From the NCBI RefSeq assembly GCF_002078605.1, contig NZ_MSJR01000002.1, positions 186,001 to 250,000 of the forward strand: 64,000 bases of DNA, given 5' to 3'. The translations under genes and the position numbers were made by a program. This document shows, in pieces, positions 24,265 to 28,975 of the stretch. This stretch comes from Salegentibacter sediminis. Its GTDB lineage: Bacteria; Bacteroidota; Bacteroidia; Flavobacteriales; Flavobacteriaceae. The notes under the pieces are model-generated. The model searched no databases. It was given only the letters and a program-made list of their open reading frames with translations, and was not told the DNA's origin. Numbering within the stretch: position 1 is the first letter of the stretch; every line of letters begins with the position of its first letter.

Positions 24265-25410
24265 ATGAAACGAATAATCCTGCTTCTCTTAATAATTATT
24301 TCCGGCTGTAAAAACAACGAAAGCTCTGAAAAAGTTTCAGCAGAGGAAGCCGATAGTATAAAAGTACCTACAATCACTGAGGCTTTACAAAGCGAAATCA
24401 TAGAATTTGATCTCGAAGAAGCCAACAAACTTGCAGAACTTCCCCTTAACTGTATTGAAACCGAATATCCTAATAAACTGGGCCAAACCCTGGAAAATAA
24501 AGAAGCTATGGGCGAACCCAGCGAGCTTCATCCGGCCTTTTACGGCTGTTTTGACTGGCATTCTTCGGTTCATGGGCATTGGTCCCTTATAAGTTTGCTA
24601 AAACAATTTCCGAAGCTTGAAAAGCGAAAAGAAATAAGGGAATTACTTCAAAAAAGTCTTTCTGCTGAAAATATTCAGGAGGAGCTCGAATATTTCCGAA
24701 GAGAACATAGTGATTCTTACGAGCGTACTTACGGTTGGGCCTGGTTGCTTAAACTGGCTCAGGAAATAAAAACCTGGGATGATCCCCTGGCACAGGAACT
24801 TGATCAAAACCTCCAGCCTTTAACCAATCTTATAGTAGAACGATATATGGAGTTTCTCCCAAAACTCAATTACCCTATCAGGGTTGGAGAACACGAAAAT
24901 ACAGCTTTTGGTCTCTCTTACGCCTGGGACTATGCTGTTACCGCCGAAAATGAGGAGCTGAAAGAACTCATTTCGAAACGAGCAAGGGATTTTTACCTTA
25001 GTGATGATCATTGCCCCATAACCTGGGAGCCGGGTGGCTTCGACTTTCTCTCTCCCTGTTTAGAGGAGGTGAATATTATGCGTAGGGTCTTACCGAAAAA
25101 CGCCTTTATGATGTGGTTAGACGATTTTATGCCTAACCTCAAGAATGAAGGTTTTAATATTGAAGTAGGCGAAGTTTCCGATCGCACCGATGGAAAACTG
25201 GTGCATCTCGATGGTCTCAATTTTAGCCGCGCCTGGGTTTTTTACGGCCTGGTCAATAAATATCCGGATGAATTCGGGCATTTAAAGAGCCTTGCCGACA
25301 GTCACGTAGCTTATTCCTTCCCTAATTTGGTAGGTGATAGCTACGAAGGTGGCCACTGGTTAGGCAGTTTTGCTATCTACGCACTTAATGAATCCCGCAA
25401 GGGCAAGTGA
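24265..25410 (+). CDS. DUF2891-family lipoprotein, linked to 5-oxoproline genes
   Basis: 381 aa. Signal peptide MKRIILLLLIIISGC with lipid Cys15, so exported and membrane-anchored. The body matches what I recall of DUF2891: HPAFYGCFDWHSSVHGHW near 92-109, YERTYGWAWLLKL, WEPGGFDFLSPCLEE, and YEGGHWLGSFAIYAL at the end. The Trp/His-rich helical repeat look is like (alpha/alpha) barrel enzymes, but no catalytic role is known to me. Its stop overlaps the GTG start of the Nramp-like gene, which is followed by pxpABC, so a role in the same pathway is likely, for example releasing or binding pyroglutamyl compounds in the periplasm. A TATCTTTA element lies about 25 bases upstream. Confidence 0.75.
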   Translation: MKRIILLLLIIISGCKNNESSEKVSAEEADSIKVPTITEALQSEIIEFDLEEANKLAELPLNCIETEYPNKLGQTLENKEAMGEPSELHPAFYGCFDWHSSVHGHWSLISLLKQFPKLEKRKEIRELLQKSLSAENIQEELEYFRREHSDSYERTYGWAWLLKLAQEIKTWDDPLAQELDQNLQPLTNLIVERYMEFLPKLNYPIRVGEHENTAFGLSYAWDYAVTAENEELKELISKRARDFYLSDDHCPITWEPGGFDFLSPCLEEVNIMRRVLPKNAFMMWLDDFMPNLKNEGFNIEVGEVSDRTDGKLVHLDGLNFSRAWVFYGLVNKYPDEFGHLKSLADSHVAYSFPNLVGDSYEGGHWLGSFAIYALNESRKGK

Positions 25411-26627
25411 GAAATTTTTTAAAAAACCTTGGGCCGGGAATCCTGGTCTCGGCGGCATTTATTGGCCCGGGAACGGTGACCGTCTGCACCCTGGCCGGGG
25501 TGGAATTTGGGTATAGCCTGCTGTGGGCCCTATTGCTCTCTGTTTTTTCCTGTGTTGTTTTGCAGGAAATGGCCGCGCGTTTAGGAGTGGTTTCGCAAAA
25601 AGGTTTAAGCGAAGTGATTCGTGAAGAGATTAAGAGGCCATTTTTAAAGGTTTTCTCAGTCATTCTAATCTTCTCGGCCATAGTGATAGGAAATGCCGCC
25701 TATGAAGCCGGAAATATCACTGGAGCAGTTCTTGGCGCCCAGGCGATATTTGGAGATCAGAGCTTACAGCTGGGGAGTTTCCAGCTCAATCTCTGGAGCC
25801 TGCTCATTGGATTTATCGCTTTTCTTTTACTTTTCTCCGGAAGCTACAAAACCCTGGAAAAAGTATTTATTGGGTTGGTGCTGCTAATGAGCATCAGCTT
25901 TGTGCTTACCGCCATTCTAACCAAACCCGATATCCTTAAAGTCTTACAAGGCTTTATTCCAAATACCAATGCGGCCGGTCTGCTTACGGTTATGGCTATT
26001 GTGGGTACTACAGTAGTGCCTTATAATTTATTCCTGCACGCCTCTCTGGTAAGTGAGAAATGGAAGGATTCGTCGTTTTTACCAACAGCGCGAAAGGAAC
26101 TGGTTGTATCTATTCTTCTGGGAGGTGTGGTTTCTATGGCAATCCTTATTTCTGCTGCTTCGGCAGGGATCACCGATGTGAATTCCGCGGCCGATATGGC
26201 CTTAAGCCTGGAACCGCTTTTTGGTAAATTTGCAACCTGGTTTATGGCACTGGGACTTTTAGCTGCCGGGATTACCTCTTCGATCACCGCTCCTTTGGCT
26301 GCTGCATACGTGGTGCAGGGTTCTCTTGGCTGGAAAGGCGGGATGGCTTCTGCAAAATTCAAAATGGTATGGGCCGGAGTGCTCATCCTGGGTGTTTTCT
26401 TTTCGTCTTTACAGATCAACCCTATCGAGATCATCCGGTTTGCGCAAATTGCCAACGGAATTCTATTGCCTGTAATCGCTATTTTCTTATTTTGGGTAGT
26501 TAATAAACATTCGGTCCTGGGGCATCATCGCAATAGTAGTTGGCAAAATATTCTGGGAATTCTGGTAATCGCATTATCTGTTTTCCTTGGGGTAAAAGCC
26601 ATTGTAAGTGTGATTGGTAGCTTTTAA
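25407..26627 (+). CDS. Nramp-fold transporter lacking metal-binding residues; probable 5-oxoproline permease
   Basis: 406 aa with about 11 hydrophobic segments and clear Nramp-family layout (LGPGILVSAAFIGPGTV, FLHASLV). The two metal-site motifs are changed. The TM1 motif DPGN is GPGT (20-23), so the metal-binding Asp and Asn are gone. The TM6 motif MPH is VPY (204-206), so the Met ligand is gone. A metal role is therefore doubtful. It starts with GTG at 25407 overlapping the DUF2891 stop, and pxpA follows 32 bases after its end. Bacillus subtilis ycsG, an Nramp-like gene beside ycsF (pxpA) and kipI/kipA, is a known parallel. Uptake of 5-oxoproline is inferred from this context. Confidence 0.8.
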   Translation: MRNFLKNLGPGILVSAAFIGPGTVTVCTLAGVEFGYSLLWALLLSVFSCVVLQEMAARLGVVSQKGLSEVIREEIKRPFLKVFSVILIFSAIVIGNAAYEAGNITGAVLGAQAIFGDQSLQLGSFQLNLWSLLIGFIAFLLLFSGSYKTLEKVFIGLVLLMSISFVLTAILTKPDILKVLQGFIPNTNAAGLLTVMAIVGTTVVPYNLFLHASLVSEKWKDSSFLPTARKELVVSILLGGVVSMAILISAASAGITDVNSAADMALSLEPLFGKFATWFMALGLLAAGITSSITAPLAAAYVVQGSLGWKGGMASAKFKMVWAGVLILGVFFSSLQINPIEIIRFAQIANGILLPVIAIFLFWVVNKHSVLGHHRNSSWQNILGILVIALSVFLGVKAIVSVIGSF

Positions 26628-26659: not shown

Positions 26660-27397
26660 GTGAAAGAAATTCATATCAACTGCGACCTGGGTGAGGGAGG
26701 TGAATATGATGCCGACCTGATGCCGCTTATATCGGCCTGTAACATCGCCTGTGGTGGTCACGCAGGTACCCTGGAGACCATGCAACATACCGTAGCTCTG
26801 GCTATGGAGCACAAGGTTGAGATAGGTGCCCATCCTTCTTATCCCGATAAAGAAAACTTCGGAAGAAAAAGCCTGGAAATTTCTGCGGAAGAACTTAAAC
26901 TTTCGCTGGTTGCCCAGATCTTAAGCTTAAAGCAGATCGCTGAAGCTGAAGGTGCAAAACTCAGCCATATAAAATCTCATGGAGCCTTGTATAATGATGC
27001 CGCCAAAGATGAAAATATCGCCCGGATAGTGATCGATTCGGTGTTGGAATTCGATGAAATTCTGCCGCTTTTTGTGCCTCAGAATTCGGTGATTTCTGAA
27101 ATGGCTAAAGGGAAAATTCCACTCATTTTTGAAGCCTTTGCCGATAGAAATTATAACGAAAATTACAGCCTGGTTTCGCGTTCAAAACCCAATGCTTTGA
27201 TCACTGAAAAAGCAGCCGTTTTTGAGCACCTGTTTTTGATGTTTTCTGAAGGGAGAATACGCTGTGAAAATGAGGTTGAAATCAGTTGTAAAGCGAACAC
27301 TTTTTGCCTGCATAGCGACACCCCAAATTCGGTTGAAATTTTGAGATATCTGCACGAAAAACTGGCTGATGAAAATATTAAAATAAAGAACACTTAA
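26660..27397 (+). CDS. pxpA: 5-oxoprolinase subunit A (LamB/YcsF family)
   Basis: 245 aa. With PxpB and PxpC it hydrolyses 5-oxoproline (pyroglutamate) to glutamate using ATP; cytoplasmic. Family marks: INCDLGEG at 5-12, SACNIACGGHAG (about 28-39), GAHPSYPDKENFGR, KSHGALYNDA, FAEAFADRNY-like sequence (EAFADRNYNEN), and CLHSDTPNSVEI near the end. It begins with GTG 32 bases after the transporter and ends one base into pxpB (TAATG overlap). The length is usual (about 245-255). Confidence 0.94.
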   Translation: MKEIHINCDLGEGGEYDADLMPLISACNIACGGHAGTLETMQHTVALAMEHKVEIGAHPSYPDKENFGRKSLEISAEELKLSLVAQILSLKQIAEAEGAKLSHIKSHGALYNDAAKDENIARIVIDSVLEFDEILPLFVPQNSVISEMAKGKIPLIFEAFADRNYNENYSLVSRSKPNALITEKAAVFEHLFLMFSEGRIRCENEVEISCKANTFCLHSDTPNSVEILRYLHEKLADENIKIKNT

Positions 27398-28128
27398 TGG
27401 CTGAATTTCCTAAAATATCGGCGATGGGGGAGCGGGCGATCCTGGTTCAATTTGAGCCGGTGATCGATGAAAACCTGCTCGAAAAGTTGCTTTTTTATAA
27501 AAATAAGCTGGAAGAATTTTATGATGAAGTAAAAGTTGAGGTGACTAACACATATAACTCGTTATTAATTAATTATCTTTTCACTATAGAAGACGTCTAT
27601 GGAGAGGTTTCAGCTTTAAAACGGCTGTTTGCTGAGGCTAAGATAACAAAATTATCCAACCGGCAAATTTTTCATCTTCCCGTTTGTTATGAGGAAGAAT
27701 TCGGGTGGGACCTCGATTATATTTCAAAGGAAAAAAACCTGTCCAAAAAAGAAATTATTGATCTTCATACCTCACCTCTTTACACGGTTTATTTTATAGG
27801 TTTTTTACCCGGATTTTTATACCTCGGGGGCCTTGATAAAAAGCTTCAAATTTCCCGTAAAAACGAACCCCGGTTGAAGATCGAAAAAGGGGCGGTGGGG
27901 ATAGGTGAAAATCAAACCGGGATTTACCCAAAATCCAGTCCCGGCGGCTGGCAGATTTTAGGTAATTGTCCGGTGAACTTTTTCGATAAAAATTCCAATC
28001 CGCCTTGTGAAATTTCCCCCGGCGACAAGGTGAAATTTTATTCGGTTTCTAAAGATGAATTTTTAGAAATTTCCGAAGAGATCTCAAAAGGAAAATTTCA
28101 ATTTAAAAAGGAAAACTATGGAAGCTGA
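27397..28128 (+). CDS. pxpB: 5-oxoprolinase subunit B (KipI family)
   Basis: 243 aa. Partner of PxpC in the ATP-dependent part of 5-oxoprolinase; older annotations call it an allophanate-hydrolase subunit or kinase inhibitor KipI. Marks: ISAMGERAILVQF at the N-terminus, YFIGFLPGFLYLGGL (about 130-145), VGIGENQTGIYPKSSPGGWQILG (about 166-188), and ISPGDKVKFYSVS at the end. The ATG overlaps the pxpA stop, and its 3' end overlaps pxpC by 11 bases, so translation of the three is coupled. Confidence 0.92.
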   Translation: MAEFPKISAMGERAILVQFEPVIDENLLEKLLFYKNKLEEFYDEVKVEVTNTYNSLLINYLFTIEDVYGEVSALKRLFAEAKITKLSNRQIFHLPVCYEEEFGWDLDYISKEKNLSKKEIIDLHTSPLYTVYFIGFLPGFLYLGGLDKKLQISRKNEPRLKIEKGAVGIGENQTGIYPKSSPGGWQILGNCPVNFFDKNSNPPCEISPGDKVKFYSVSKDEFLEISEEISKGKFQFKKENYGS

Positions 28129-28975
28129 AATTGAAGTTTTACACCCGGGATTATTTTCCAGCATACAGGATTTTGGCCGGCGTGGATTTCAAAAATACGG
28201 AGTTCCTTTTTCGGGAGCGATGGACAGGCAGGCATTAAAAACTGCAAATCTTATTTTACGAAATAAAGCCGATGCTGCCGTTTTGGAAATAACCCAAATG
28301 GGGCCTAAGCTTAAATTTTCAGCAACCACTAAAATTGCTATTAGCGGAGCTAATCTTTCTCCCAGAATTAATAATTCAGAAATTCGAAATAATGAGGTGA
28401 TAAAGATAAATGCGGGGGATTTGTTGTCTTTTGGCAAACCCCAACTTGGGATGCGTGCTTATTTGGCGGTGGTGGATGGTTTCAGAACTGAAAAAGCCCT
28501 GGAAAGCCGTAGTTGGTACGAAGGCATCACTGCTAATGAAAAGCTTGAGAAGGGAATGACCTTGAAGTATTGGTCTTCTGAAAACGAGAAACGGGAAACT
28601 AATGCTTCTGTAAAATTTGATGCTTCTTACTTAACTTCTAAAGAAATTAGGGTATACCCGGGACCTGAGTTTGAACTCTTATCCCAAACTTTAAAAACCC
28701 AGTTACTTCAGAATAAATTCAGCATAGACAAAAACAACAACCGGATGGCGGTTCAACTTAGTGAAAAACTCGAAAATTTACTGAAACCCATCATCACCGG
28801 GCCGGTCCTACCCGGCACCGTACAACTTACCCCGGGAGGAAATCTTATCGTTTTAATGCGCGACTGCCAAACTACAGGCGGTTATCCCAGAGTACTTCAG
28901 CTTAGTGAGCACTCCCTTAACATCCTGGCCCAGAAGAAGACAGGAGAGGAAGTACATTTTAAATCAGGTTCCTAA
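28118..28975 (+). CDS. pxpC: 5-oxoprolinase subunit C (KipA family)
   Basis: 285 aa. Biotin-independent carboxyltransferase-fold subunit that completes PxpABC. Marks: HPGLFSSIQDFGRRGFQKYGVPFSGAMD (about 9-36), AISGANLSP, RAYLAVVDGF, VYPGPEFELL, RMAVQLSE, and LTPGGNLIVLMRDCQTTGGYPRVLQ (about 227-251). All are typical of the family. It is last in the five-gene cassette; the gap of 329 bases after it holds large hairpins. The slightly short length compared with some homologues (about 300-330) seems due to short loops. Confidence 0.92.
   Translation: MEAEIEVLHPGLFSSIQDFGRRGFQKYGVPFSGAMDRQALKTANLILRNKADAAVLEITQMGPKLKFSATTKIAISGANLSPRINNSEIRNNEVIKINAGDLLSFGKPQLGMRAYLAVVDGFRTEKALESRSWYEGITANEKLEKGMTLKYWSSENEKRETNASVKFDASYLTSKEIRVYPGPEFELLSQTLKTQLLQNKFSIDKNNNRMAVQLSEKLENLLKPIITGPVLPGTVQLTPGGNLIVLMRDCQTTGGYPRVLQLSEHSLNILAQKKTGEEVHFKSGS

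Follow-up and report, generated by a model that had tools for sequence, protein, structure and literature searches.

An Nramp-related protein lacking the metal ligands, encoded beside 5-oxoprolinase genes in Salegentibacter sediminis, as a proposed 5-oxoproline importer

What is carried by an Nramp-type protein that has lost the metal ligands and whose gene precedes those of a 5-oxoprolinase? The question is raised by a locus of Salegentibacter sediminis, located in the window analyzed here, a stretch of 64,000 nucleotides of contig NZ_MSJR01000002.1. The source organism is close to Salegentibacter flavus, the transporter of which is 97% identical to the one encoded in the window. On one strand, the order is DUF2891, Nramp-type gene, pxpA, pxpB, and pxpC:

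24265..25410, + strand: DUF2891 gene (PF11199; Pfam, 456 bits)
25407..26627, + strand: Nramp-related (PF01566) transporter, proposed 5-oxoproline importer (Pfam, 295.9 bits; gene context; AlphaFold model)
25464..25475, + strand: TM1 segment GPGT, replacing DPGN (profile alignment with the D. radiodurans Nramp)
26007..26024, + strand: TM6 segment TTVVPY, replacing ATVMPH (profile alignment with the D. radiodurans Nramp)
26660..27397, + strand: pxpA, 5-oxoprolinase subunit A (LamB/YcsF; Pfam PF03746 and NCBIfam, both above cut-offs)
27397..28128, + strand: pxpB, 5-oxoprolinase subunit B (Pfam CT_C_D; TIGR00370 above cut-off)
28118..28975, + strand: pxpC, 5-oxoprolinase subunit C (Pfam CT_A_B above cut-off; NCBIfam PxpC_5OPro, 183.9 bits, below its cut-off of 500)

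The transporter frame (406 amino acids) starts with a GTG that overlaps the TGA of the DUF2891 gene by four bases. This overlap, with pxpA-pxpB-pxpC behind, had been claimed in the original prediction and is borne out by the ORF coordinates and the profile matches. The genes may well be co-transcribed. No hyu gene was found at the locus in the profile searches.

The protein is a member of the Nramp family (PF01566, 295.9 bits vs. a cut-off of 29.8), and the NCBI naming rule NF037982 labels it a divalent metal transporter (88.3 bits vs. a cut-off of 50). The canonical motifs, DPGN in TM1 and MPH in TM6, are absent: residues 20-23 read GPGT and residues 204-206 VPY. When the group profile is aligned to the D. 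radiodurans structure, GPGT falls on DPGN and VVPY on VMPH, ungapped there, which places the replaced motifs exactly where they had been predicted. The alanine of TM6 (the A of ATVMPH) is a threonine in the window protein. The ligand loss is common to the whole group of the window protein and to two further groups. A chance loss in one gene was rejected, as the motif residues are invariant (G20, P21, G22, T23, T201, T202, V203, V204, P205, and Y206) in an alignment of 36 rows, the window protein and 35 relatives.

The AlphaFold model of the window protein (mean pLDDT 79.8, with 56-58 over residues 11-30) has the LeuT/Nramp fold, with TM1 broken at 19-20 and TM6 at 204. Its ten best Foldseek matches all come from structures of Nramps or NRMTs (TM-score, normalized by query length, 0.79-0.86), followed by amino-acid carriers such as ApcT. 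The top PDB sequence match for the group profile is EleNRMT (7qia), narrowly above BfraNramp. Membership of the NRMTs, characterized by DxxG in TM1 and TxxA/T in TM6, was rejected, since the window protein has GxxT and TxxV. A second PF01566 protein is encoded in the same genome, about 2.5 kb past the window end (L002, G000 C12:252496-253527). It is very divergent (46 bits, GVSH in TM1) and, like the transporter of the window, not canonical.

One set of 247 Bacteroidota genomes was searched with PF01566, PxpA, DUF2891, HyuB, a profile of the window type (A1), and a group-3 profile (A2). Three ligand-less groups are present. Group 1, that of the window protein, counts 33 places (A1, at least 453 bits), group 2 counts 20 (A1, 237-325 bits), and group 3 counts seven (A2, at least 553 bits). 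Proteins with A1 scores of 204 bits or less are canonical and others; 88 places scoring at least 359.7 bits in the PF01566 search were taken as canonical. The motif was examined in 47 of these 88 sequences, and all 47 carry DPGN/MPH. DAGG, an NRMT-like motif, is found at another two places, with 328-331 bits. On an Alicyclobacillus plasmid (L141), an NRMT-like protein with DAGG is encoded behind an MgtE_N/CBS domain gene, as fits a magnesium carrier.

In group 1, 29 of the 33 places lie within 10 kb of PxpA, and in the four exceptions (G053, G194, G076, and G111), PxpA is located elsewhere in the genome. All 33 group-1 genomes possess PxpA, vs. 51 of the 247 overall (one match below the family cut-off, in G106, is left out of the counts). 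In group 2 (GPGT, TT[VI]V-Y), ten of the 20 places lie within 10 kb of HyuB, at distances of 90 to 4993 bases, and six of these neighborhoods were seen directly in sequence; the other ten genomes hold HyuB (five) or PxpA (five) elsewhere. In group 3, six of the seven places adjoin PxpA, one of them (G138) with one stop in the matched stretch. The seventh (G190) has two stops and lies in a genome with HyuB and without PxpA. Altogether, PxpA or HyuB is found in 60/60 genomes of the ligand-less groups (44 PxpA, 16 HyuB) vs. 86/247 overall. The Fisher values of the linkage are tiny, kinship being ignored; group 1 spans 16 genera in four families, group 2 ten genera in nine, and group 3 seven genera in six.

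The stops at the G190 place (L227, C63:51669-52871) possibly reflect a decay of the transporter along with the loss of the pathway. At the G053 locus (L050), the DUF2891 and transporter genes are followed by a gamma-glutamyltranspeptidase gene, with PxpA about 260 kb off on the same contig. Across the sample, 51 genomes hold PxpA and 35 HyuB, and the two never share a genome: none vs. about seven expected in the 247 genomes (Fisher 2e-4 without regard to kinship), as though one of the two were enough.

None of the 88 canonical places in the 247 genomes lies within 10 kb of PxpA or HyuB, a count that says less than it seems because 78 of the 88 genomes hold neither enzyme; the direct contrast is 0/10, from the ten canonical genomes holding one of them.

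The whole-genome test covers the Bacteroidota, and other phyla are represented by plasmid records. The plasmid relatives of the window group amount to 24 records at 41-45% identity, 23 haloarchaeal and one of Pseudoalteromonas. HyuA lies directly behind the transporter in seven of the nine examined (in the Halobellus record, it came to light only in a separate search); no HyuA follows in those of Natrononativus and Pseudoalteromonas. The subfamily of the window protein thus has PxpABC as its partner in the Bacteroidota and, in haloarchaea, the unrelated HyuAB. Among the named homologues, the best 80 of 589 confirmed loci, picked by likeness to the window group and mostly from Flavobacteriaceae, PxpA is in the locus for 78 and DUF2891 for 62. 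In the remaining two without PxpA (L111 and L124), the DUF2891 and transporter genes are kept, and no pxp gene occurs in the 8 kb behind.

PxpABC acts on 5-oxoproline, and its chemistry, the ATP-dependent opening of 5-oxoproline-like rings, is shared with HyuAB. Linkage to two unrelated ring-opening enzymes points to the ring compound as the cargo, not to a metal cofactor, and the loss of the side-chain ligands fits such a cargo. In APC-superfamily amino-acid carriers, the carboxylate is held by main-chain amides. Judging from context and sequence, the window protein is probably an inner-membrane LeuT-fold importer of 5-oxoproline (pyroglutamate), or of a very similar carboxylated lactam, feeding PxpABC. 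In the window protein, GPGT and TTVVPY would bind the carboxylate through their main-chain amides in the same way, and the ATP-dependent 5-oxoprolinase PxpABC would open the ring of the imported molecule to give glutamate.

The DUF2891 protein looks like a lipoprotein: by eye, Cys15 lies behind a hydrophobic N-terminus, and this residue is invariant in 29 aligned rows. It is probably an envelope lipoprotein that may supply or handle the substrate outside the membrane. Residues 59-375 match the structures of C. jejuni Cj0554 (8ieu/8iev; TM-score of the model vs. 8ieu, 0.72). The next structural matches are weak (E 0.04 and worse), the first being unsaturated glucuronyl hydrolases, and no activity follows from them. 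As only seven of the 33 group-1 places in the 247 genomes have it alongside, every one in family f1, and another 15 genomes possess DUF2891 but no group-1 gene, DUF2891 is not an essential part. It is found beside HyuAB and an Nramp-type gene at locus L188. At another locus (L201, G198), the upstream neighbors of DUF2891 look by eye like those in the window (GAPDH-like, BadF-like), and DUF2891 is followed by a tricorn-like protease, with no transporter or pxp gene after it.

The characterized relatives of the protein appear to fall in group 3. A group-3 query matched 168 plasmid records, 93 of them from Klebsiella, and PxpA lies within 6 kb in all seven examined (picked from the best 40 of the 168). 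In Bacillus badius, the member of which is 50% identical to the query, the order is PxpA-Nramp-hydro-lyase with pxpB-pxpC on the opposite strand, like ycsF-ycsG-ycsI. The Fusobacterium order PxpA-Nramp-PxpB-PxpC is the one of pxpAGBC, named for C. difficile, and the order in Pararhizobium and Klebsiella, Nramp-PxpA-hydro-lyase-PxpBC-biotin carboxylase, resembles mumT-L-U-H-C. From gene order and the identity of these relatives, YcsG, PxpT, PxpG, and MumT appear to belong to group 3, not to the group of the window protein, and the mum operon would be of the pxp type. The YcsG model in the PDB (9a52) is 22% identical to the window model; from this value and the identity and gene order of the B. 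badius member, a single orthologous branch with YcsG appears improbable. One Klebsiella plasmid (L246) carries a group-3 transporter gene together with a pxp-type gene set, with an IS1 element and GntR genes nearby.

The published readings of these apparent relatives conflict: manganese importers according to two papers, whereas a further paper takes one of them for a 5-oxoproline importer. In C. glutamicum, deletion of pxpT stops growth on 5-oxoproline, with complementation, and import of 5-oxoproline is proposed for PxpT and YcsG; metal transport is not excluded there (PMC13274462). YcsG is called a manganese importer and renamed MntG in PMC10448178: its overproduction raises cellular manganese and that of only the downstream genes does not, mutations in ycsG, mntH, and mntA could be combined only when ycsG was supplied in addition, and the operon promoter is bound and repressed by MntR. 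In the same text, a polar effect is described as not fully ruled out in the older 5-oxoproline evidence. In PMC5050338, MumT is called a manganese importer: the A. baumannii mumT mutant contains less manganese (complemented), resists toxic manganese, and grows worse with calprotectin.

These reports count against the 5-oxoproline reading, even if both proteins appear to be of group 3, and favor an importer of Mn2+ or Mg2+ with a rebuilt site, supplying the oxoprolinase or nitrogen metabolism. Ligand loss alone does not separate organic from metal cargo, because the NRMTs carry Mg2+ without the canonical motif; furthermore, EcoDMT given the NRMT site residues still carries Mn2+ (PMC8806188). 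Against a metal, the side-chain ligands are all gone from the window protein, including the Asp kept by NRMTs, the linkage tracks two unrelated enzyme families, PxpABC and HyuAB, and none of the ten canonical genes in genomes holding either enzyme is near it. A metal importer is considered unlikely.

The distribution of canonical Nramps also counts against the 5-oxoproline reading. They never share a genome with group 1 (0/33 vs. 88/247 overall; Fisher 2e-7, kinship ignored), and they co-occur in six of seven group-3 and two of 20 group-2 genomes. Such exclusivity would also be expected from a replacement manganese carrier. It looks like an effect of lineage, however, as it mostly fades within families: among the listed genomes that have no group-1 gene, the canonical protein is absent from 10/10 in f23 and from 3/3 in f1 (genus g2 left aside); in f8, it is present in one of three (G146). 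Profile searches of the genome of the window yielded two ZIP proteins as further metal-import candidates, but neither a canonical Nramp nor a binding protein of the ZnuA type, so that a role in manganese import is conceivable. The last point against is the places apart from oxoprolinase genes: four of 33 in group 1, the two among the best 80 of 589 named loci (L111 and L124), and those of Pseudoalteromonas and Natrononativus.

The cargo could also be another organic ring, such as hydantoin or D-5-oxoproline, with L-5-oxoproline a minor substrate or none. The names of the HyuAB families refer both to hydantoins and to 5-oxoproline, and in three archaeal loci, an Asp/Glu racemase-family or maleate isomerase gene lies behind hyuAB. 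The window locus, on the contrary, has PxpABC, for which the substrate is 5-oxoproline (PMC13274462), and no hyu gene, making this quite unlikely here. A symport of 5-oxoproline with a metal ion would reconcile both data sets published for YcsG (PMC13274462 and PMC10448178), but no canonical metal ligand is kept, and it is very improbable.

An organic-acid branch of the Nramp family had been predicted from the window. The oxoprolinase context supports an organic acid well (29/33 places near PxpA, and relatives with HyuAB), but the ligand-less proteins form three groups and no simple single branch. They are together in a careful tree and apart in a quick one, both unrooted and without outgroup. 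The quick tree has 93 rows, the careful one 73 of those, omitting five long rows of other proteins and 15 near kin (nine of group 1, four canonical, two NRMT). Groups 2 and 3, canonical, and NRMT are each on one side of a branch; group 1 is so in the quick tree, and the careful tree does not reject it (p 0.46). The canonical proteins are the neighbors of groups 1 and 2 in the quick tree, where group 3 and NRMT stand at a greater distance. The careful tree sets canonical and NRMT opposite the three ligand-less groups, with support of 95/96 and a warning of canonical/NRMT long-branch attraction; groups 1 and 3 are joined without support (14/3), and groups 1 and 2 held together are not rejected (p 0.52).

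According to PMC12873925, Nramp-related proteins without DPGN and MPH are paraphyletic to the canonical Nramps, a rooting that would make the metal site the derived state. A wider reading, possible if rather doubtful, is that groups 1 to 3 are lactam or organic-acid carriers and this the older Nramp trade. The DPGN/MPH and Mg-carrier DxxG sites would have been built later in the former carboxylate pocket, the manganese effects of YcsG and MumT would be indirect, and many annotated metal transporters would be 5-oxoproline importers. Ligand state combined with linkage to two unrelated oxoprolinase families gives a testable rule. If this rule is right, many annotations would be corrected, the mum and ycsG operons recast, and a possible route opened to view from an organic-acid carrier to a metal transporter.

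The importer idea has in part been published already, for PxpT and YcsG, which appear to be of the distant group 3. New here are a subfamily separate from group 3, its link to HyuAB, and its recurrent DUF2891 partner. Among the open-licence papers listed by the searches, judged by title and abstract opening, none links Nramp-type proteins to HyuAB, or ligand loss to 5-oxoproline.

Among known systems, other transporter types are also linked to 5-oxoproline: the Bordetella TRAP receptors (PMC13274462) and DUF969/DUF979 of C. jejuni, which have DUF2891 alongside. The three C. jejuni genes, cj0552-4 (DUF969, DUF979, and DUF2891), are needed for the use of 5-oxoproline as a nitrogen source, a preliminary result (PMC12795558). 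The canonical Nramp/MntH proteins (DraNramp, BfraNramp) share the fold, at 22-26% identity to the window model, and have both DPGN and MPH, lost in the window protein. NRMTs such as EleNRMT have, like it, the Nramp fold with an altered site; they keep the TM1 Asp (DxxG) and carry Mg2+ (PMC8806188), whereas the window protein has GxxT. The substitutions named for the Slc11 orphan outgroup (PMC10606218) are found as invariant residues in the window group: helix 6 has V and Y, helix 3 has Y, N, and four Gly, and A228 is replaced by T. A parallel in gene content is given by PxpT (C. glutamicum), YcsG/MntG (B. subtilis), and PxpG (C. difficile), each of the PF01566 type in a pxpABC operon, and the window locus likewise has such a gene within a pxpABC cluster. 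The parallel with Bacillus ycsG drawn in the original prediction concerns the gene neighborhood and apparently not close kinship: these three appear to be of group 3, with GPGF and GTVGGY, whereas the window protein falls in group 1, with GPGT and TTVVPY.
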